In this document: positions 181 to 33,599 of the stretch, one piece after another
Numbering within the stretch: the first letter of the stretch is position 1
How the letters are laid out: each line of letters begins with the position of its first letter
NCBI GenBank assembly: GCA_020628865.1
Contig: JAHDEJ010000010.1
Span: forward strand, 28,079-92,078
Source: Acidimicrobiales bacterium
Lineage (GTDB): Bacteria; Actinomycetota; Acidimicrobiia; Acidimicrobiales; SHLQ01
Direction of reading: 5' to 3'
DNA: 64,000 nt
Translations under genes and position numbers: made by a program
Notes under the pieces: model-generated
Databases searched by the model: none
What the model was told of the DNA's origin: nothing
Seen by the model: only the letters and a program-made list of their open reading frames with translations

Positions 181-2381
181 TCGAACGTCGGCGGGGCCGG
201 GGCGGCCGCCATCGGATCGAACGTCGGTGCGGCAGGTGCGGCACTGTCGAGCGGAGGCACGTCGACTGCTCCGAAGACCTCAGAAGGCGTCGAGGGGGTG
301 GTTGGCACGGCGTCGAGCGCAGCTGCCGGGAAGGCCGGTGTTGCCGGCGGAGTTTCGATCACGGGCTCCTGGAACACGGGAGCGGGCTGCTCGATCGTGG
401 GCTCCACCAGGGGGATGGACGCGGGCTCCGGGCTCTCGTCCATTCCGAAGTTGCCGAGTTCGAACATTCCGGACGGCGCTGCCTCGGGTTCAGGCGCCGG
501 AGCGGCTTCCGGTTCCGGAAGCGGGGCGGTGAGCACGGTGGTCGGTTCGCCGGCTCGCCATTCGGCCACGACATCGGCCGGAATCGTGACGGCGGCAACC
601 GTGCCACCGTCGTGTCCGGGCGTGAGCACCACGGTGAGCGCCATGCGCTGGGCGAGACGTCCGACAACGGTGAGTCCGAGGCTCCGAGACATCGAGAGGC
701 TGTTGCTCGGCGGGTTGGCCAGCAGGTGGTTCAGCTCGGCGCGACGGTCCTCGGCGAGGCCGGTGCCACGGTCGACGACCTGAAGCGTGTAGGAACCGCT
801 GGCGTCGGACAAGCCGATGACGTCGGCGACGGTGCCGGGCGACGAGCTCTGCGTGGCATTCTCCATCAGCTCGGAGAGCAGGTGGGCGAGGTCCTGGGCG
901 ACATGTCCGGCGACGAGAAGATCGTCGAGCGCCACGGGAACGATGCGCCGATAGTCCTCGACCTCACCGATGGCAACCCGAACGACCTCACGGAGCTCGA
1001 CGGCTGGGCCGCGGCGACGTGGGCTGCTCTGGCCGGCGAGCACCAGAAGGCTCTCAGCGTTCCGGCGCATGCGGGTGGCCAGGTGGTCGACCCGGTACAT
1101 CTGGGCGAGACGATCCGAGTCCCGTTCGTTCGACTCGAGCTGGTCGATGACTTCGAGCTGACGGTCGACCAGCGTCTGGTTGCGACGAGCGAGGTTGACG
1201 AACATGTCCGAAATGCCGCTCTGGAGCAGGTCGTCCTGCTGCAGAGCAACGGACTCCGTGGCTCGCCGAATGTCGTTCAAGCTCTCGGAGACCTCTGCGA
1301 TCTCGTCGTTGCCCTCCATCTCGAGGACGGGTCGGGACTCCCGAGCGGTCGGTTCTCCCCCGCTGACGCTGACGGCGAGATCCGGGAGGTCGTGCTTGGC
1401 GAGTGCGGCAGCTTCGGCGCTGACGGTCGAGAGGCGCTTGCGAAGGCCATTGCCGACGACCAGAAGCGCACCGAGGCCGAGCAGCAGGCCGATGAGCGCA
1501 AGCGCACCGAGGTTGCGGGTCGTGCCCTGTGCATCGCTCGAGGAGGACGCAGCGGCAGCACCGGCACGGTTGATGAGCGTCCGGCGTGCCTCGGCAATCG
1601 CCGTGGCCTGGTCGTTGCTCGCAGCTTCCCACGCCGCCGCGTCGACGGTTGTCGGGTCGCCGGCCGCGGTGGCGAGGAATTCAGCGCTCAGGGAGGCGTA
1701 GGCGCCTTCGACGTCGCGGACCTGCTCGGCTGGCAGTGCCCGGAAGAAGTAGGCGTCGAGCAGGCTGGTGGTTGCGGCGAGGCGCTCGGAAAGCTCCGGA
1801 GGCGTCGTACCGCTGTGTGCAGCCCACATGCCGAGGAGCTGGGCATCGGCTGCGGCGAGTGCGGCGTCGTTCAGGTCGCTGGCCTTGAGCAGCTCGGCGG
1901 CCACCGCGGCTTCGGAACGACCCGAAACCCGGGCGTCGAAGGCAACGAGCTCGGTGAGGAGCTCCATGTCGGCGTCGTAGACGATCTCTGCGCCCGCACC
2001 GTTGGTGGCGAATTCGGCCGTCACGAGGTCGCGATGGGTGCCGATGTCCCGGATGTCGCTGATGAGATCGCCGACGTCGAGCGATTCGAATAGCGGCGCC
2101 TTTGCAAGCCAGGCTGCGCTGGCGGCATCGGTCGTCGCACGCACCTCATCGAGGTTCTGTTGGGCAACGACCGAGTTCTGGTTCTGCACGGCCTCGTCGC
2201 GCAATGCGTCGAAGAGTCGTCCGTTCAGTAGCGCCATGTCGACGCGACGATCGGCATCCGTGGCGCTGGACAGGTCGGTCAAACCGCCCCGAATTCCGAG
2301 GCCAGCAATGGCCAGGAGCGCAAGAAGTGGGCCCACCAGGAGCAGCGCCAGCTTCTTTCTGATTGTCAGGTTGTTGAACAT
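1..2381 (-). CDS. CvnA-like sensor histidine kinase with NIT-type sensor region (3' end off window)
   Basis: A long open frame runs leftward from ATG 2381 and off the window edge, giving at least 793 residues. An N-terminal helix (about 9-30) and a second one near 288-308 bracket an extracytoplasmic helical region that resembles nitrate/nitrite-sensing (NIT) domains. A HAMP-like segment follows. Near residue 428 is YRVDHLATRMRRNAESLLVL, the block typical of Streptomyces CvnA conservon kinases. An HATPase_c domain comes next, with its N box at SELMENAT (about 500) and its G box at DRGTGLAED (about 537). After about residue 600 the protein becomes a Pro/Ala/Phe-Asp repeat tail. GAGGG lies just upstream of the start. 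In conservons CvnA feeds a roadblock protein, a DUF742 protein and a small GTPase. Those genes would lie left of position 1, so the pathway is inferred. Confidence 0.85.
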   Translation of the reverse strand, partial: MFNNLTIRKKLALLLVGPLLALLAIAGLGIRGGLTDLSSATDADRRVDMALLNGRLFDALRDEAVQNQNSVVAQQNLDEVRATTDAASAAWLAKAPLFESLDVGDLISDIRDIGTHRDLVTAEFATNGAGAEIVYDADMELLTELVAFDARVSGRSEAAVAAELLKASDLNDAALAAADAQLLGMWAAHSGTTPPELSERLAATTSLLDAYFFRALPAEQVRDVEGAYASLSAEFLATAAGDPTTVDAAAWEAASNDQATAIAEARRTLINRAGAAAASSSSDAQGTTRNLGALALIGLLLGLGALLVVGNGLRKRLSTVSAEAAALAKHDLPDLAVSVSGGEPTARESRPVLEMEGNDEIAEVSESLNDIRRATESVALQQDDLLQSGISDMFVNLARRNQTLVDRQLEVIDQLESNERDSDRLAQMYRVDHLATRMRRNAESLLVLAGQSSPRRRGPAVELREVVRVAIGEVEDYRRIVPVALDDLLVAGHVAQDLAHLLSELMENATQSSSPGTVADVIGLSDASGSYTLQVVDRGTGLAEDRRAELNHLLANPPSNSLSMSRSLGLTVVGRLAQRMALTVVLTPGHDGGTVAAVTIPADVVAEWRAGEPTTVLTAPLPEPEAAPAPEPEAAPSGMFELGNFGMDESPEPASIPLVEPTIEQPAPVFQEPVIETPPATPAFPAAALDAVPTTPSTPSEVFGAVDVPPLDSAAPAAPTFDPMAAAPAPPTFDPAPATPTFDPAAAAPAPPAPPAFDAPAPPAFDPVAEAPAPSAFDAPAPPAFDPVAEAPA

Positions 2382-2474
2382 GATTCCCTCGGCAGTGACG
2401 GCAGCCGTCTCCGCACTATCGGAATCACGAGTGTGAAATTGAGTGGTTTTCCCGTCCCCGAGGGGGCGGAATGA

Positions 2475-3948
2475 TCACCGCTGTGGCGTATCCGTGGGTC
2501 GAACCGGGGCCGGCAGGCTGGAGTCGCCCATGAGCGCAGCGTCGACGGCCGCAGCGCACGAGCGACCTTCGGCAATGGCCCACACGATCAACGACTGCCC
2601 GCGCCCCATGTCGCCGCACACGAAGACGTTGTCCACGTTGGTCGACCAGTCGTCGTCGCGAACGACATTTCCACGGTCGGAGAGGTCCACTCCGAGCCCG
2701 GTCAGCAGCGGCGAACGCTCCGGACCGGTGAAGCCCATTGCGAGCAGCACCATCTGGGCCGGGAAGCGCTCTTCGCTGCCTTCGACCGGAACGAAGGACA
2801 TGCGGCCGTCCACCACGTCCTGCCGGACACGAACGGTCTGGAGCGCCGCCACGTTGCCGTCGTCGTCCATCTCGAACTCGACCGTGTTGATCCCGTACTC
2901 ACGCACGTCGCCATCGGCGATCTCGATGGCCTCTTCGTGCGCTGACGGCGTGCGAAGGATCATCGGCCAGGTCGGCCACGGGTTTCCGGCCGCCCGCTCC
3001 TCCGGTGGTTCCGGCATGATCTCGAACTGGTGCACGGACTTCGCACCGTGACGCAGCACGGTTCCGAGACAGTCGGCACCCGTGTCGCCACCGCCGATGA
3101 TGACGACGTCGAGCCCTTCCGCGGACCGCGGGTGCTCGGCAAGATCGCCTTCCTGCACCTTGTTCGCCGGCGGGAGGAACTCCATCGCTTGCATGATGTT
3201 GTGCGCCTCTCGGCCCGGGATCGGAAGATCCCGCCACTGCGTCGCTCCACCGGCCAACACGACCGCGTCGTGATCGGCCTGCAGCGCCTCGGTGGTGATG
3301 TCGACGCCGACGTTCACCCCGGTGCGGAACACCGTGCCCTCGGCCTCCATCTGTTCGAGCCGTCGATCGAGGAACTTCTTCTCCATCTTGAACTCGGGGA
3401 TCCCGTAGCGCATGAGACCGCCGATGCGATCGGCTCGCTCATAGACGGTCACCGAGTGACCGGCTCGGGTGAGCTGCTGGGCAACGGCGAGGCCGGCGGG
3501 TCCTGAACCGACGACGGCGATCTTCTTGCCCGTCTGCACCTTCGGCATGACCGGGGTGACCCAGCCTTCCTCGAACGCCCGCTCGATGATTTCGACCTCG
3601 ACCTGCTTGATGGTCACCGGAGGCTCGTGGATTCCGAGCACGCACGATCCCTCGCACGGGGCCGGGCACAGTCGGCCGGTGAACTCCGGGAAGTTGTTGG
3701 TGGCGTGGAGGCGCTCGATGGCCTCCTTCCAGTTGCCGCGGTAGACCAGGTCGTTCCAGTCCGGAATGAGGTTTCCGAGCGGGCAGCCGTTGTTGCAGAA
3801 CGGGATGCCGCAGTCCATGCATCGAGATGCCTGGGTCTTCAGCTCGTCCTCGCCGAAGTCCTCGTAGACCTCGTTCCAGTCGAGGATGCGCACCGGCACG
3901 GGTCGACGTGTCGGCAGCGAGCGGTCGTGCTTCATGAAGCCGGTTGGA

Positions 3949-23774: not shown

Positions 23775-24995
23775 GTGACCAGCGATCCCCCCGGTGAGCA
23801 GCGCCCGCTTCGCTCGCGCCTCAACGACATCCCGAACATGGACGAGGCACCCCTGGAGCCGGAGTGGCTGCGGGAGCGCAACGACCGTCCGCGACGTCGA
23901 CCGACGCAGCCGGTCGTGAACGCGCAGACGCCCCCCGGACCCACCCCACGGCGTCCGCAGGCGCCGGTGGCCCGACCGGCAGCAGTGCTCGACCCTGAGC
24001 CGGTCGTCCCCCATCCACCGGCCGATGAGCCGGCCGCTCCCACCCGACGGCGACGGCGCCGTCGGCGTTGGCCCTGGGTCCTGGTCGTGCTCCTTGCGCT
24101 GCTTGCAACGATGATCATCATCCCCGGGCTGCTGGCGCTTCGAACGTTCAATTCGATCGAACGCATACCGGTCGCTGAGGCGCTCACCCCGGTTGCGGAG
24201 AGCAGCCCGGGCCGAAATCTGCTCCTCGTCGGCACCGATTCCCGCGCCGGGATCGACGCCGACGAAGAGAACGCCGGCCTGATCCTCGGCGGTGGAACCA
24301 GCGGGGAACGGTCCGACACGATCATGGTCCTGCGCATTGCGGACGACGGCACCTCGAGCATGCTCAGCCTCCCCCGGGATCTCTGGCTGCCGATCAACGG
24401 CGGCGATCCGCAGCGGATCAACACGGCGATCGCCCAGGGCCCGGCCGCCGTGATCAACACCATCCAGACGGAGCTCGGCGTGCCGATTTCGGGCTACGCC
24501 GAGGTGGACCTGGCCGGGTTCATCGATCTGGTCGATGCCATCGGCGGCGTCACGATCAACATTCCCAACCCGGCATTCGACCGTGCGTCCGGCCTGGACC
24601 TCCCCGTCGCCGGCGATGTCGAGCTCGACTCGGCCCAGGCGCTCGCCTGGGTGCGCAGCCGCCGCTACACCGAGATCATCAATGGCGCCGAGGTCACGGA
24701 CCCCACCTCCGACCTCGGGCGGGTGAAGCGGCAACAACAGTTCCTGCGAGCGCTCTTCGAGAAGGTGAGCTCAGAACGCAACCCGCTGGAGTTGAACGAG
24801 ATGATGTCTTCCGTGGCGGGAGCGATTCGCATCGACGATCAGACGTCGATGACCGACGCGCTGGAGCTCGCCAATCGAATCCGGACCGGTTTGCCGGAGT
24901 CCGTCGAGCTCCCGACCCGCCCGACGACCGTGGGAAGCGCAGCCGTTCTCGTGTTGGCCGACGGCTCCGAAGGCGTTCTCGCACAGTTCCGCTGA
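23775..24995 (+). CDS. LytR-CpsA-Psr family cell-wall ligase
   Basis: The 406-residue protein has a 90-residue Pro/Arg-rich cytoplasmic tail, eight consecutive arginines (91-98), one membrane helix (about 100-120) and an extracytoplasmic LCP domain. Conserved residues appear in GTDSRAG, SDTIMVLRI, SLPRDLWLPI, QRINTA and LAWVRSRR. LCP proteins transfer lipid-linked glycopolymers onto peptidoglycan. GTG 23775 begins the frame. The C-terminal 60 residues resemble no domain I can name. An M23 peptidase gene follows 50 bp later. Confidence 0.92.
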   Translation: MTSDPPGEQRPLRSRLNDIPNMDEAPLEPEWLRERNDRPRRRPTQPVVNAQTPPGPTPRRPQAPVARPAAVLDPEPVVPHPPADEPAAPTRRRRRRRRWPWVLVVLLALLATMIIIPGLLALRTFNSIERIPVAEALTPVAESSPGRNLLLVGTDSRAGIDADEENAGLILGGGTSGERSDTIMVLRIADDGTSSMLSLPRDLWLPINGGDPQRINTAIAQGPAAVINTIQTELGVPISGYAEVDLAGFIDLVDAIGGVTINIPNPAFDRASGLDLPVAGDVELDSAQALAWVRSRRYTEIINGAEVTDPTSDLGRVKRQQQFLRALFEKVSSERNPLELNEMMSSVAGAIRIDDQTSMTDALELANRIRTGLPESVELPTRPTTVGSAAVLVLADGSEGVLAQFR

Positions 24996-25045: not shown

Positions 25046-25855
25046 GTGACAACGTTCGATCGGTTGGCGGGCCGAATTTCCCTGGTCCTGTTGGCCGCCG
25101 CCATCCTGTGGGCCGCCGCCGTCCCAGCTGCCGCCACGGAGCCGGAACCCGCCGTGTGGCGGGCGCCGGAGGCTGCGGGCGCACCGTTCGTCGCCGATCG
25201 AGCCCGAACCGACGTCGTCATCCGGCGAGCGGATCTGATGCGCCGCAGCGACTCGCTCGCCGAGGCCGTCGCCGTACTCGATCCGGCCACACCCGAATTC
25301 ACCCGTCAGGCCCTCGAAGCCGAACGGATGGCCCTTCAGGCGCTGATCGCGTCGCTCGACGTCTCTCACCTGGCCGAGGCGACCGAGGACTACGGCATCG
25401 ACGTCGGCATCTTCCCGGTCGATGAACTGCGCAAGATGTTCTACAACGACTGGCGGGAGCCCCGCTCCGGCGGACGCCGACACGCCGGAAACGACACGCT
25501 TGCCCACACCGGCGTGCCGCTGCGGGCCATCGAGGACTCGACGGTGGAGCGGCTGACGACATCGGCGCTCGGGGGCCGCACCATCTATCTCATCGGCAAG
25601 AGCGGCGCCCGCTACTACTACGCCCACCTCGACGAGGTCTTCACGTTCGAGCCGGGCGACACCGTGTACGCCGGCGAACAGATCGGCACCGTCGGCGACA
25701 CGGGCAACGCCCGGGGTGCTCCACACCTGCATCTTCAGTGGTCGCCCACGGGCGACTCGAACTGGGAGAACCCGTATCCCCTGCTGGTCGCGCTGTTCGG
25801 CCGCACAGAGGTGTACTCGAGCAAGGCGTTCGGTCCGCCCAACGCTCGCGCCTGA
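25046..25855 (+). CDS. Secreted M23 (LytM) peptidase
   Basis: The 269-residue protein has a signal peptide (1-31, cut after AAAT or nearby), a helical middle part and a C-terminal LytM domain. Zinc ligands His146 and Asp150 lie in RHAGNDTLAHTG. The catalytic YYAHLD has His194, and HLHLQW carries His227 and His229. The active site is intact, so it should cut peptidoglycan peptides outside the membrane. GTG 25046 follows the LCP stop by 50 bp, and menD begins 17 bp after its stop, so a shared transcript is likely. Confidence 0.9.
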   Translation: MTTFDRLAGRISLVLLAAAILWAAAVPAAATEPEPAVWRAPEAAGAPFVADRARTDVVIRRADLMRRSDSLAEAVAVLDPATPEFTRQALEAERMALQALIASLDVSHLAEATEDYGIDVGIFPVDELRKMFYNDWREPRSGGRRHAGNDTLAHTGVPLRAIEDSTVERLTTSALGGRTIYLIGKSGARYYYAHLDEVFTFEPGDTVYAGEQIGTVGDTGNARGAPHLHLQWSPTGDSNWENPYPLLVALFGRTEVYSSKAFGPPNARA

Positions 25856-29486: not shown

Positions 29487-30878
29487 TCAGTCGAGAGCCG
29501 TCAGGCTCCAGTGCCACGGTTCGCTCTCGAGATTCACGAATCCGTACTTCGGCGCATGCGCGGCCAGCCATTGGAAGCCAGCGCTGTCCTGTGACGTGAT
29601 CGATGCACCGTTGAAGGTGAAGTCGATCGCACGTCCCTGTTCGTGCTTCGAGAAGCCGGGACGGGCTGTGGGTGGAGCACACTCGAACACCGGCTTGTGC
29701 CAGATGTCGTACTCGGACCCGCCGCAGTGTGCGGCCCGGAGCTCGATCTGGCGCTGGATCGGTCGATAGCCCCAACCGGCCAGTTCGATGCCCTGCTCGA
29801 ACGCCTCGGTGAACAGCGCCCGTGTCTCTTCCTCGATGTCGACATGGACCTGGATGGCGAACCGGACTTCGGCCGGTCGGGCGATTTCGGCCAACGCCTC
29901 GATGGCGTCGGAGCCGTCGTCATCGGTGGATTCGAAATCGATCGCTGCCGTGTCGTCCACGACTTCGGCCTCGGGTTCTGCGTCAACGTCAGCGGGATCG
30001 GGCTCGTCGACGTAGAACTCGATCAGGACGATGTCTTCGAGATCGACGGGCGGCGGAATCTCGACCCCGTTCGTGCGAGCCACCGACGCGATGCGCTGGT
30101 TGATCGCTTCCTGCTGGTCCCGGATCTGCGTGGCCAGCTCCACGTTTCGTTCCTCGATGAACGCTGCCTCGGCCAGCCGTGCTTCGAGCTGTGTCTCCGC
30201 CGCCTGCACCAACAACGCCTGTCGGTTTCGAGCCACTTCGAGCGACGTCGTCCGCTTCTGTACGAGCTCGAGGCCGGCTTCGGCATCCTCGGCGGCAGCT
30301 TCCTGGACGCCGATCAGCAGTTCAGCCTCGACCTCGAGTGCCCGGAGGCGATCGAGGCCATCGGTGAGCGATCCGGTCTGCAGCTCGAGCAGATGACGGA
30401 ACCGTGATGCCTCACCGGGATCTTCTGAGAGCGCCAGCTGGGTCATGTCGTCGCTGTCGATGGTCTGCTCGCCGGTGAAGCTGGCAACGGCCAGGTCGGC
30501 GAGGTCTGATCGTGCCCCCTGAATCTCTTCCTGGACCCGGACCTGTTCCGCCTCGGCGGAGGCAACCGCTGCTTCAGCGGACGCCAGGGCCCGTTCAGCG
30601 TCCTCGAGACGGCTCTCCTGTACACGGACGATGGCGTTCAGTTCGTCGAGGGCCTCGGTGACCTCCTCAACGGTGGCGTTCGCAACGTCGATCAGCTGGA
30701 TGGTTGCGCCGGACTCTTCGCGGAGTTCTTCCTGTTCCGACTGCAGTTCCTCCAGTTCCTCGACGTCCTCCTGCGCCGACGCAGCGGGCAGGACGAGCGC
30801 GAAAACGAACGCCATCAGCGCTGCGGTGGTCGCCGCGCGCAAGAAACTCGGCCGCTCGGGGCCACGGGACCAACGCAT
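29487..30878 (-). CDS. Secreted coiled-coil VanY-type carboxypeptidase, copy 3
   Basis: A 463-residue protein: signal peptide (about 1-36, cut after ASA), then a long Glu/Ala-rich coiled coil (about 38-265), an acidic spacer rich in Asp/Glu (about 280-325), and a C-terminal M15/VanY domain. The zinc motif SKHEQGRAIDF and the terminal EPWHW are intact, with a Cys pair in AHCGGSEYD and FECAPP. Predicted to trim D-Ala from wall peptides outside the membrane, possibly positioned by the coiled coil. It is the last of three tandem paralogs, 57 bp after the middle one. The acidic spacer is unique to this copy. Confidence 0.85.
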   Translation of the reverse strand: MRWSRGPERPSFLRAATTAALMAFVFALVLPAASAQEDVEELEELQSEQEELREESGATIQLIDVANATVEEVTEALDELNAIVRVQESRLEDAERALASAEAAVASAEAEQVRVQEEIQGARSDLADLAVASFTGEQTIDSDDMTQLALSEDPGEASRFRHLLELQTGSLTDGLDRLRALEVEAELLIGVQEAAAEDAEAGLELVQKRTTSLEVARNRQALLVQAAETQLEARLAEAAFIEERNVELATQIRDQQEAINQRIASVARTNGVEIPPPVDLEDIVLIEFYVDEPDPADVDAEPEAEVVDDTAAIDFESTDDDGSDAIEALAEIARPAEVRFAIQVHVDIEEETRALFTEAFEQGIELAGWGYRPIQRQIELRAAHCGGSEYDIWHKPVFECAPPTARPGFSKHEQGRAIDFTFNGASITSQDSAGFQWLAAHAPKYGFVNLESEPWHWSLTALD

Positions 30879-30935
30879 CCGGTTCCATCGTCATCGCCGG
30901 CCCCGATCTGAGCCGTTCGGCCCAGTTCCGATATG

Positions 30936-32189
30936 TCAGTTGCCGTCGGTGCTCCAGTGCCAGGGTTCGCTCGGGAGGTTCACGAACCCGTATCGGGCCG
31001 CGTTCTCCGCAAGCCACACGAACCCAGGGTTGGATCGGCTGGTCATCGATGCACCGTTGTAGGTGAAGTCGATGGCGAGACCACGCTCGTGGTTCGACTG
31101 GCCCGGGCGTGCCGTCGGGGGCGAACAGGCGGACGCCGGCATCTCCCAGATGGCGTATTCGGAGGTGCCGCAATGCGCCATGCGCAGCTCGATCTGGCGA
31201 ATGTTGCTCCGGTAGCCCCATCCACCAAGATCGATGCCGTCGTTCCTGGCATCGGTCAGGAGTTGGTCGACCCGGTCCGCGATGTCTTTGTGCACCTCGA
31301 TGCCCTGAACGGATCGGATGTCTTCGGGCAGCGCGGGTGGGATCGGGGGCGGCCGGTTGGCAGCAGCTTCCGCAGCAGCTGCCGCTGCGGCCGCCGCAGC
31401 TTCCGCCCGGATTCGTTGGGCGATGACCTCTTCCTGCGCCCGGATCTCGGCGGCTTTCTCGGCATCGCGTTCCTCGATGAACGCCGCCTCGGCGAGCCTG
31501 GCCTCCAGCCGGGTTTCCGCAGCGGCCACCAGTTCCAGCTGGGCGTTGCGGGACGTGCCCAGTTCGGCCTCGCGGGCGAGGGCCTGTTGCCGGCCCTCTT
31601 CCGCAGCGTCGACGGCGACCCGGCGCTGGTCGGCGACGTCCTCCGCCTCGGCCACGAGTTGCTTGAGGCGATCGAGACCGTCGGTGAGGGATCCGGTCTG
31701 GAACTCGACCAGGCTCCGTCGCCTCGCCGCCTCAGAAGGGTCGTCGCTGAGCAGCAGCGCAGTGAGATCCTCGCCATTCGGTCCCGACTCCCCCGTGAAC
31801 GAGGCCACGGCCAGATCCGCCAGATCCCCTCGCAGGAGGTCCATCTCGGCCTCGATCGCTACCGCTCGGGCGGTGGCGGCCTCCACTTCCGCCTCGGCGC
31901 TGGCCACGGCCTGCTCGGCGGCGAGCAGTCGGGCCTCCTGCAGATCCACGAGGGCATTGAGGTTGCCGAGTGCCTCAGCCACGACATCGAAGTCGGCGGT
32001 GGCTGCATCGACGTCGAGTGCCTGGGCCGCCAGTTCCTCTTGAATCACCTCTCGCTGCGCCTTGAGGTCGTCCAAGACGTCTTCGTCGTCCTGCGCACCT
32101 GCCGGCGTCAGAGCGCCCAGCACGGTGAACAGCAGCACGACCACCACAACGGTGCGTGCACGCGCGACGAAGGACTCCACTCCGGCCAT
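30936..32189 (-). CDS. Secreted coiled-coil VanY-type carboxypeptidase, copy 2
   Basis: The 417-residue middle paralog has a signal peptide ending near PAGAQ, a coiled coil of about 230 residues including an Ala-run, and a VanY domain. SNHERGLAIDF and EPWHW carry the metal and catalytic residues, and the Cys pair is conserved (AHCGTSEY, SACSPP). ATG 32189 (MAGVESF) is preferred to the TTG three codons earlier. Gaps of about 55-65 bp separate it from copies 1 and 3, so the three are probably one operon. Substrate and physiological role are inferred from domain content. Confidence 0.85.
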   Translation of the reverse strand: MAGVESFVARARTVVVVVLLFTVLGALTPAGAQDDEDVLDDLKAQREVIQEELAAQALDVDAATADFDVVAEALGNLNALVDLQEARLLAAEQAVASAEAEVEAATARAVAIEAEMDLLRGDLADLAVASFTGESGPNGEDLTALLLSDDPSEAARRRSLVEFQTGSLTDGLDRLKQLVAEAEDVADQRRVAVDAAEEGRQQALAREAELGTSRNAQLELVAAAETRLEARLAEAAFIEERDAEKAAEIRAQEEVIAQRIRAEAAAAAAAAAAEAAANRPPPIPPALPEDIRSVQGIEVHKDIADRVDQLLTDARNDGIDLGGWGYRSNIRQIELRMAHCGTSEYAIWEMPASACSPPTARPGQSNHERGLAIDFTYNGASMTSRSNPGFVWLAENAARYGFVNLPSEPWHWSTDGN

Positions 32190-32253
32190 CCGAGACAATC
32201 TAGTCGCATCGGTCCGATGCGACGGCGCGCTCGGCTACGAATGACGAACGGCG

Positions 32254-33468
32254 TCAGCTGCCGTTGGTGCTCCAGTGCCAGGACTCGCTCGGCAGGTTCC
32301 GGAAGCCATAGTTCGCCGCGTTGTTCGAGAGCCACACAAAGCAGGGCGAACCCCGCCAACAGCTGGCGAAATCGATGGCCAGACCCCGCTCGTGCATCGA
32401 CTGCCCCGGGCGAGCCGTCGGGATTCGGCAGCTGCTCGGCGGTGAATCGTAGACGTCCGGACACCCGTTGATGACACGGAGTTCTGCGGTGCGTTGGGGC
32501 GAACGCCAGCCGTAGCCGGTGAGGTTCACGCCGTCGCTTCGGGCGTCCTGAATCATCCGGGTGACCGAGTCGCCGACGCTTTCGTGAACGAGGAAGCCCT
32601 CGGCGTTGACGAGATCGTCTTCACCAGCCGGCGGCACCAGATTGGCGCGGCGTGCGGCCGCCTCAGCAGCCGCCTTGCGTGCGGCTTCTTCGCGGATTCG
32701 CCGTGCGATCGCTTCTTCTTGCGCTCGGATCTCGGCGGCAAGGTCTGCATCGACCTCGTCGAGGAATGCGGCCTCGGCCAATCGGGCCTCGAGACGGGTT
32801 TCCGCAGCGATCACGAGTTCGACCTGGGCATCGATCGCTTCGTCGAGCTCTGCTCGGCGCTCCTCTGCCTCGATGCGGTTGGCCAGCGCTGCCTCGACGG
32901 CACGCACTCGTTGTGCCTCGACGAGCTCCGCCTCGGTCACCAGCGCCCGCATCCGATCCAGTGTGTCGCTCAGGTTTCCGGTCTGGAATTCGACCAGGCT
33001 GCGGCGGCGAGCGGCTTCGGTCGGATCGTCGTTGACAAGGAACGAGGTCAGGTCCTGCCCGTTCGCGCCCGCTTCGCCGGTGAACGCCTCGACGGCAAGG
33101 TCGCCGACGATCGCCTGCAGCGCTTCGATCTCCTCGGCGATCTCCTGGTTTCGTTGCTGAGCTGCGGCAACCTGTTCTTCCGCCGACAGGACCGCCTGCT
33201 CTGCATCGGCGAGACGAGCTTCTTGGAGGTCGACGAGCGCATTGATGTCGTCGAGCGCCTGCATCAGCACATCGAAGTCCGCCGTTGCGGCATCGACCTG
33301 CAGTGCCTTCGCTGCAGCCTCCTCTTGGAGCTGTTCACGCTCGGCCTTCAGCTCCTCGAGCTGCTCCTCATCGTCCTGGGCCAGTGCGGGAGCCCAGGCA
33401 AAGCCGATGATCGTGAGCAGCACCGCGAGCGCGGCAAACCAACGCGAGCGGCGGTCGAGAAGTGGCAC
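32254..33468 (-). CDS. Secreted coiled-coil VanY-type carboxypeptidase, copy 1
   Basis: The first gene of the trio encodes about 404 residues. It has a signal peptide (VPLLDRRSRWFAALAVLLT, then a cut near ALAQ), a coiled coil to about residue 270, and a VanY domain with SMHERGLAIDF and ESWHW. It has lost the AHCG cysteine context but has NGCPDVY, SSCRIP and an extra CWRGSPC, so its disulphides differ. The start is uncertain: GTG 33468 gives a normal signal peptide; TTG 33504 would add 12 residues. Confidence 0.83.
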   Translation of the reverse strand: MPLLDRRSRWFAALAVLLTIIGFAWAPALAQDDEEQLEELKAEREQLQEEAAAKALQVDAATADFDVLMQALDDINALVDLQEARLADAEQAVLSAEEQVAAAQQRNQEIAEEIEALQAIVGDLAVEAFTGEAGANGQDLTSFLVNDDPTEAARRRSLVEFQTGNLSDTLDRMRALVTEAELVEAQRVRAVEAALANRIEAEERRAELDEAIDAQVELVIAAETRLEARLAEAAFLDEVDADLAAEIRAQEEAIARRIREEAARKAAAEAAARRANLVPPAGEDDLVNAEGFLVHESVGDSVTRMIQDARSDGVNLTGYGWRSPQRTAELRVINGCPDVYDSPPSSCRIPTARPGQSMHERGLAIDFASCWRGSPCFVWLSNNAANYGFRNLPSESWHWSTNGS

Positions 33469-33599
33469 CCGAAGATACAAGCACTGTTTGGCTCGGAACG
33501 CCAATCACCCTCAAGGGAATCGGCCACTGCACGCGCGATCTTTAGCAATGAATATCACTGAACGTCGATCTCAGGGGGGCTGCGGCCCCGAGTCGCGAA

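Follow-up and report, generated by a model that had tools for sequence, protein, structure and literature searches.

VanY-type peptidases on an EnvC-like coiled-coil arm form a tandem set in one genus of Acidimicrobiales and are candidates for control by FtsEX

Introduction

What governs three putatively secreted VanY-type peptidases that are encoded side by side in an Acidimicrobiales genome, each with a long coiled coil ahead of its catalytic domain? The genes lie in a stretch of 64,000 nucleotides (assembly GCA_020628865.1, contig JAHDEJ010000010.1, positions 28,079 to 92,078 of the forward strand), here called the window, from whose first base the window coordinates below are counted. The original prediction, made from the sequence of the window, had likened their layout to that of EnvC, PcsB and RipC. 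In the available text of the published accounts, FtsEX has as its partners either hydrolases of the NlpC/P60 and related types or EnvC, with its amidase-activating LytM domain (PMC10694151, PMC9897464, PMC6403190). Our literature search, which covered titles and the starts of abstracts and lay mostly outside subscription journals and preprints, returned no account in which VanY partners FtsEX or is borne on a coiled coil of the EnvC type. The reading that we favour, which we rate at little better than an even chance, is that these proteins act as secreted peptidoglycan hydrolases akin to EnvC, PcsB and RipC, that a VanY (M15B) zinc peptidase has taken the place of the M23 or NlpC/P60 module, that the arm is gripped by FtsX, and that they took over from an ftsX-linked M23 protein.

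Three tandem genes in the window

The three genes are co-oriented, running from 33504 to 29487, with intergenic gaps of 55 and 57 bases. Genes and arms are placed as follows.

29487..30878, minus strand: copy 1 (P0001), 463 amino acids, defined by its open reading frame (ORF) and translation, PF02557 at 44.9 bits; in order, signal peptide, coiled coil, long acidic spacer and VanY domain
30084..30773, minus strand: coiled-coil arm of copy 1, placed by alignment with copies 2 and 3
30936..32198, minus strand: copy 2 (P0002), 420 amino acids from a TTG (ATG at 32189), PF02557 at 46.2 bits; in order, signal peptide, coiled coil, short Ala-rich spacer and VanY domain
31404..32093, minus strand: coiled-coil arm of copy 2, placed by the structure model and by its homology to ftsX-linked M23 proteins and EnvC
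32254..33504, minus strand: copy 3 (P0003), 416 amino acids from a TTG (GTG at 33468), PF02557 at 30.1 bits; in order, signal peptide, coiled coil, short spacer and a VanY domain with an extra cysteine pair and a shortened catalytic loop
32689..33378, minus strand: coiled-coil arm of copy 3, placed by alignment with copies 1 and 2

The start codons of copies 2 and 3 are uncertain; the end first given for the set, 33468, is a GTG that lies 36 bases within the longest reading of the copy 3 ORF (TTG at 33504). Reading the translations by eye, all three proteins begin like signal peptides, with a hydrophobic core followed by AxAQ, and each holds a coiled coil of about 230 residues. These coiled coils are 49% (copy 1) and 60% (copy 3) identical to that of copy 2, which excludes unrelated arms, the first of two findings that the original prediction had named as refuting it. 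The differences that it had read in spacer, cysteine pattern and length were also borne out: next to the long acidic spacer of copy 1 and the three distinct lengths, the cysteines stand at 385/400 in copy 1, at 343/358 in copy 2 and at 348/359/382/388 in copy 3, where one more, Cys8, exists only with the TTG start. Against the closest genome, the ratios of nonsynonymous to synonymous substitution (dN/dS) across the three genes are 0.054, 0.053 and 0.013, and the genes are under purifying selection. Because the set is present in 10 of the 11 genomes of the genus, the source genome included, and because its dN/dS is so low (0.013-0.054), the tandem arrangement is not a matter of chance.

A coiled-coil arm of the EnvC kind

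In the structure model of copy 2 (mean predicted local distance difference test score 88.6; predicted template modelling score 0.62), helices at residues 32-61, 70-135 and 154-241 frame a tip at 136-153, and the arm is predicted to be an antiparallel coiled-coil hairpin. A search of the relatives found this coiled coil joined to M23 as well. When profiles were compared with one another, the VanY-type arm matched the M23 proteins encoded behind ftsX (hhalign expectation value (E) 1.4e-13, score 103) and a group of M23 proteins not seen adjoining ftsX (E 5e-31, score 218). Because coiled coils resemble each other, the columns of the VanY-type profile were shuffled 100 times with heptad phase kept; the top score among these shuffles was 41, against the observed 218 and 103. 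In two relatives, L047 (6778-8951) and L059 (4320-6427), the ORF after the unlinked M23 coiled-coil gene resembles, by eye, one for a DivIVA-domain protein.

Against solved structures, the full-length VanY profile matched EnvC (2.6e-6 and 4.3e-6) and Cg1735 (1e-4) over the hairpin, and the EnvC matches pass through the tip in register. With the coiled coil as the only query, 4 of the 45 chains listed were aligned across the tip, all of them EnvC or Cg1735. All 72 aligned proteins have an aromatic residue ahead of the tip (Phe134 in copy 2), which matches the invariant tyrosine of the ftsX-linked M23 set. In Mycobacterium tuberculosis RipC, as the available text of PMC10694151 has it, Tyr111 beside the lip packs against a phenylalanine cluster of FtsX; by analogy, the aromatic of the VanY-type arm may correspond to this residue. 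With E allowed up to 0.1, the Pfam model CC_PcsB reaches only 1 of 23 VanY-type and 2 of 15 M23-type proteins, and the family is therefore not annotated by it. Profile evidence thus indicates that the arm is homologous to the arms of EnvC/PcsB/RipC-kind partners. The comparison that had been drawn from layout is thereby raised to homology of the arm (by hhalign, the shuffles and the EnvC/Cg1735 profile matches), and the catalytic domain is different, as had been claimed.

Set beside known systems, the window proteins share some features and depart in others. EnvC (PDB 8hd0, 8tzk, 6tpi) is an FtsEX-bound amidase activator with a LytM/M23 domain, and its hairpin aligns end to end with the VanY-type profile; the window proteins, in contrast, end in VanY/M15B rather than M23, hold all of the catalytic residues and have no ftsEX linkage. 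The NlpC/P60 proteins RipC and RipA (Cg1735) of Corynebacteriales and the pneumococcal PcsB are secreted, as the window proteins are predicted to be, and likewise have an N-terminal hairpin arm, a variable linker and a C-terminal peptidase; PcsB and RipC are among the Foldseek hits and Cg1735 is the profile match noted above, yet their catalytic fold is another one, and neither SteA in the source genome nor the MctB domain of SteB in the genus was found. A further comparison is with the M23 coiled-coil proteins encoded behind ftsX in other Acidimicrobiales (alignment A7, 14 of 19 ftsX-linked cases), which belong to the same order of bacteria and have a homologous arm (E 1.4e-13), but differ in having an M23 catalytic module, in being ftsX-linked and in being absent from the window's genus.

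FtsEX context in the genus and its relatives

The ftsX gene was found in 56 of 59 relatives, among them all 11 genomes of the genus, that of the source included. An M23 and/or coiled-coil gene lies within 5 kb behind ftsX in 19 genomes: both parts were matched in 13 and M23 alone in 4, and in the remaining 2 the coiled coil was matched and the rest is cut by the contig end. Among sister genera of the same family, 7 of 8 genomes have such a gene, and in the eighth the contig stops 581 bases past ftsX. None of the 11 genus genomes has one; in every case the sequence extends 3.8 kb or more beyond ftsX, and in most of them an alcohol dehydrogenase-like gene comes next. In seven genomes (G026, G033, G040, G045, G049, G050 and G056) ftsX is present and these profiles find no coiled-coil M23 or VanY gene.

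A profile built on the M23 proteins linked to ftsX detected no protein that joins a coiled coil to M23 in any of the 11 genus genomes; its coiled-coil hits in the genus were VanY-type proteins (in the window, copy 1) and three short stretches with E above 1e-4. In the source genome, NlpC/P60 had no match, and the three coiled coils, used as a profile, returned only themselves at E <= 1. Because no coiled-coil M23 protein, no NlpC/P60 protein and no other coiled coil was matched, the VanY proteins are, as far as these profiles reach, the only detectable bearers of the EnvC-type arm in the genus. In relatives the gene behind ftsX encodes an M23 coiled-coil protein, whose role here has probably passed to the VanY set.

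Distribution and duplication

The one genus genome without the full set is 85% complete (G002). In all nine named loci of the genus the set adjoins menC, menH and menD, and a small M23 gene after menD is present in eight of them, the contig of the ninth ending sooner. A scan across the genomes of 84,980 species confirmed 414 relatives, and further analysis used the best 80 of them (77 loci). The record titles of these best 80 of 414 name Acidimicrobiia or less specific actinobacterial metagenome-assembled genomes (MAGs), with one labelled Acidobacteria. Three copies occur in 10 of the 77 loci, two in 3 and one in 64. In an even draw of 296 genomes across the phylum, full-length matches at E <= 1e-50 were found in six, all of the same order. 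Within a conserved men locus, the set is a tandem expansion specific to the genus.

The phylogeny was built on alignment A5, which joins 69 of 100 coiled-coil VanY ORFs to the three window proteins (72 rows, 26 of which form alignment A6); ORFs with long or cut starts and surplus copies, including third-type copies of several genus loci, were left out. The 25 genus rows form one group (Shimodaira-Hasegawa-like approximate likelihood-ratio support 99), within which type 1 and type 3 are both recovered as single groups (100); the tree does not resolve type 2 into one. On account of this grouping of types, the tree fits two tandem duplications that preceded the diversification of the genus. Three tandem VanY coiled-coil genes are also seen in a MAG outside the genus group (L090, 7983-11893); they group apart from the window's set and are, judging from the tree, a separate tandem expansion.

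Other wall-related genes stand at the locus in the window. Just ahead of menD, at 25046-25855 (plus strand), lies the gene of a small M23 protein in which no coiled coil was matched, and the ORF that precedes it (23985-24995, plus strand) resembles by eye a LytR-CpsA-Psr wall-polymer ligase, so that the locus would hold several wall genes.

The VanY domain

All three window proteins exceed the PF02557 (VanY) cut-off of 25 bits, and the domain is matched in 23 of 23 members of alignment A3. The motifs Ser-x-His-Glu-x-Gly-x-Ala-x-Asp and Glu-x-Trp-His, which contain the zinc ligands and the catalytic glutamate, show no variation across the 72 aligned rows, those of the window included. The description of three tandem paralogs with a coiled coil, a C-terminal VanY domain and intact zinc motifs therefore stands. 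The best structural matches of the copy 2 model are LdcB and VanYB, at Z about 12 and about 20-31% identity, followed by phage endolysins at Z 10.3-10.6. The domain is equally near to D,D- and L,D-carboxypeptidases, with the endolysins not far off, and from these model-based matches the bond that is cut cannot be told; the wall-trimming role rests on the family name. The VanYB and LdcB/DacB carboxypeptidases (PDB 5zhf, 4mph, 4ox5) have the catalytic fold and motif in common with the window proteins, but their matched chains consist of the peptidase domain only.

A fourth VanY gene of the source genome (L003, G000:C106:39012-42362, ORF 1486-3117 on the minus strand) encodes a protein in which glycine-aspartate-rich repeats, by eye of the RTX-like calcium-binding type, replace the coiled coil.

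Discussion

We propose that the N-terminal hairpin of these proteins acts as a regulatory arm. At the division site FtsX, driven by FtsE, would grip the tip of the hairpin, and before release the arm would hold the VanY domain inactive. An arm that keeps the catalytic domain shut has been published for RipC and Cg1735, according to the available text of PMC10694151 and PMC9897464. FtsE activity would then free the VanY domain at the septum, where stem peptides of the septal wall would be cut, most likely trimmed, and the three copies may divide the labour among them.

Several observations weigh against this proposal. The linkage to ftsEX that was looked for did not appear: no VanY-type gene is linked to ftsEX in any of the 77 named loci (flanks of up to 8 kb, many of them cut by contig ends), and none stands beside ftsX in the 11 ftsX neighbourhoods of the genus. 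The coiled coil alone matches EnvC marginally (E 0.009-0.28), and over one helix unrelated coiled coils outscore EnvC with this profile; comparison of the arm by structure does not discriminate either, SMC and PI3K coiled coils scoring as well as or better than PcsB, RipC and EnvC among the Foldseek hits. In some relatives, such as G042 and G057, VanY-type genes occur alongside an unlinked M23 coiled-coil gene, and in 11 of 50 genomes ftsX is present with neither of the two gene types, so that FtsEX need not always have a partner visible to these profiles. In favour of replacement, the two gene types are rarely found in one genome: of the same 50 genomes, 20 have the VanY type only, 18 the ftsX-linked M23 gene only and 1 both (Fisher p 3e-5, which is of limited weight because the genomes are not independent), but a phylogeny-aware test yields only six independent pairs with a median p of 0.125, which is not significant. 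This sample was drawn from 59 genomes, of which 3 lacked a match to FtsX, 2 could not enter the tree because they were too short, and another 4 did not extend far enough past ftsX; trait labels were entered by hand, and G028 was counted as linked though its gene is 2.4 kb away and contig-cut. Across genomes, replacement of the ftsX-linked M23 gene by the VanY type is accordingly suggestive. A gene adjoining ftsEX is frequent, and not required, among the coiled-coil hydrolases that FtsEX controls, and despite the missing linkage we regard FtsEX control as the best candidate mechanism.

The arm could instead be an inherited autoinhibitory or wall-spanning element that answers to another membrane partner, or to none, in the manner of RipA with Cg1604 (SteB), and that has no role with FtsEX. 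We regard this as the main rival, less likely than control by FtsEX. In its favour, the RipA homologue Cg1735 has a related arm (profile match 1e-4) and, in the available text of PMC9897464, is activated by Cg1604 independently of FtsEX; the VanY-type genes are unlinked to ftsEX; and the arm resembles RipA in the SteB-RipA complex at Z 10.2, no better than it resembles unrelated coiled coils. The partners that this explanation borrows from Corynebacteriales are, however, not seen, since SteA was not found in the source genome and the MctB domain of SteB was not found in the 11 genus genomes, by models that do find Corynebacterium glutamicum, and control by SteAB was rejected. Moreover, among the relatives of the arm, the nearest whose gene context is informative sit behind ftsX.

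Considerably less probable, in our estimate, is that the VanY domain is an endopeptidase acting on cross-links or on L-Ala-D-Glu bonds, which replaced M23 one for one in cell separation, whether under FtsEX or another regulator. Family M15 does include L-Ala-D-Glu endolysins, those matched at Z 10.3-10.6, and relatives have M23 where the genus has the VanY type; yet the best structural matches are the D,D- and L,D-carboxypeptidases at Z about 12, and the genus still has M23 enzymes without a coiled coil, which could perform the cutting. An identity as VanY enzymes of glycopeptide resistance, with an unusual N-terminus, is suggested by the family name only, and we give it hardly any credence: the best score against the NCBIfam resistance VanY model is 28.7 bits for a cut-off of 400, the conserved neighbours are menaquinone genes, and three copies are kept throughout the genus. 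This identity was rejected.

The proposal of FtsEX-controlled VanY enzymes may be carried one step further, and here we are more tentative, holding it somewhat short of an even chance: in this genus FtsEX may work solely through VanY-type enzymes, with M15 replacing M23 on the EnvC arm and the three copies competing for, or dividing among them, a single FtsX. If so, FtsEX would govern septal trimming, which limits cross-links, rather than, or besides, cutting. More generally, if this arm bears a VanY peptidase here and the customary M23 partner has been lost, the arm would be the conserved signalling part of such hydrolases and the catalytic end an exchangeable one, and regulation of carboxypeptidase trimming by FtsEX would become directly testable. 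The layout of arm and VanY domain may also help to recognise division-linked VanY enzymes among the Acidimicrobiia.

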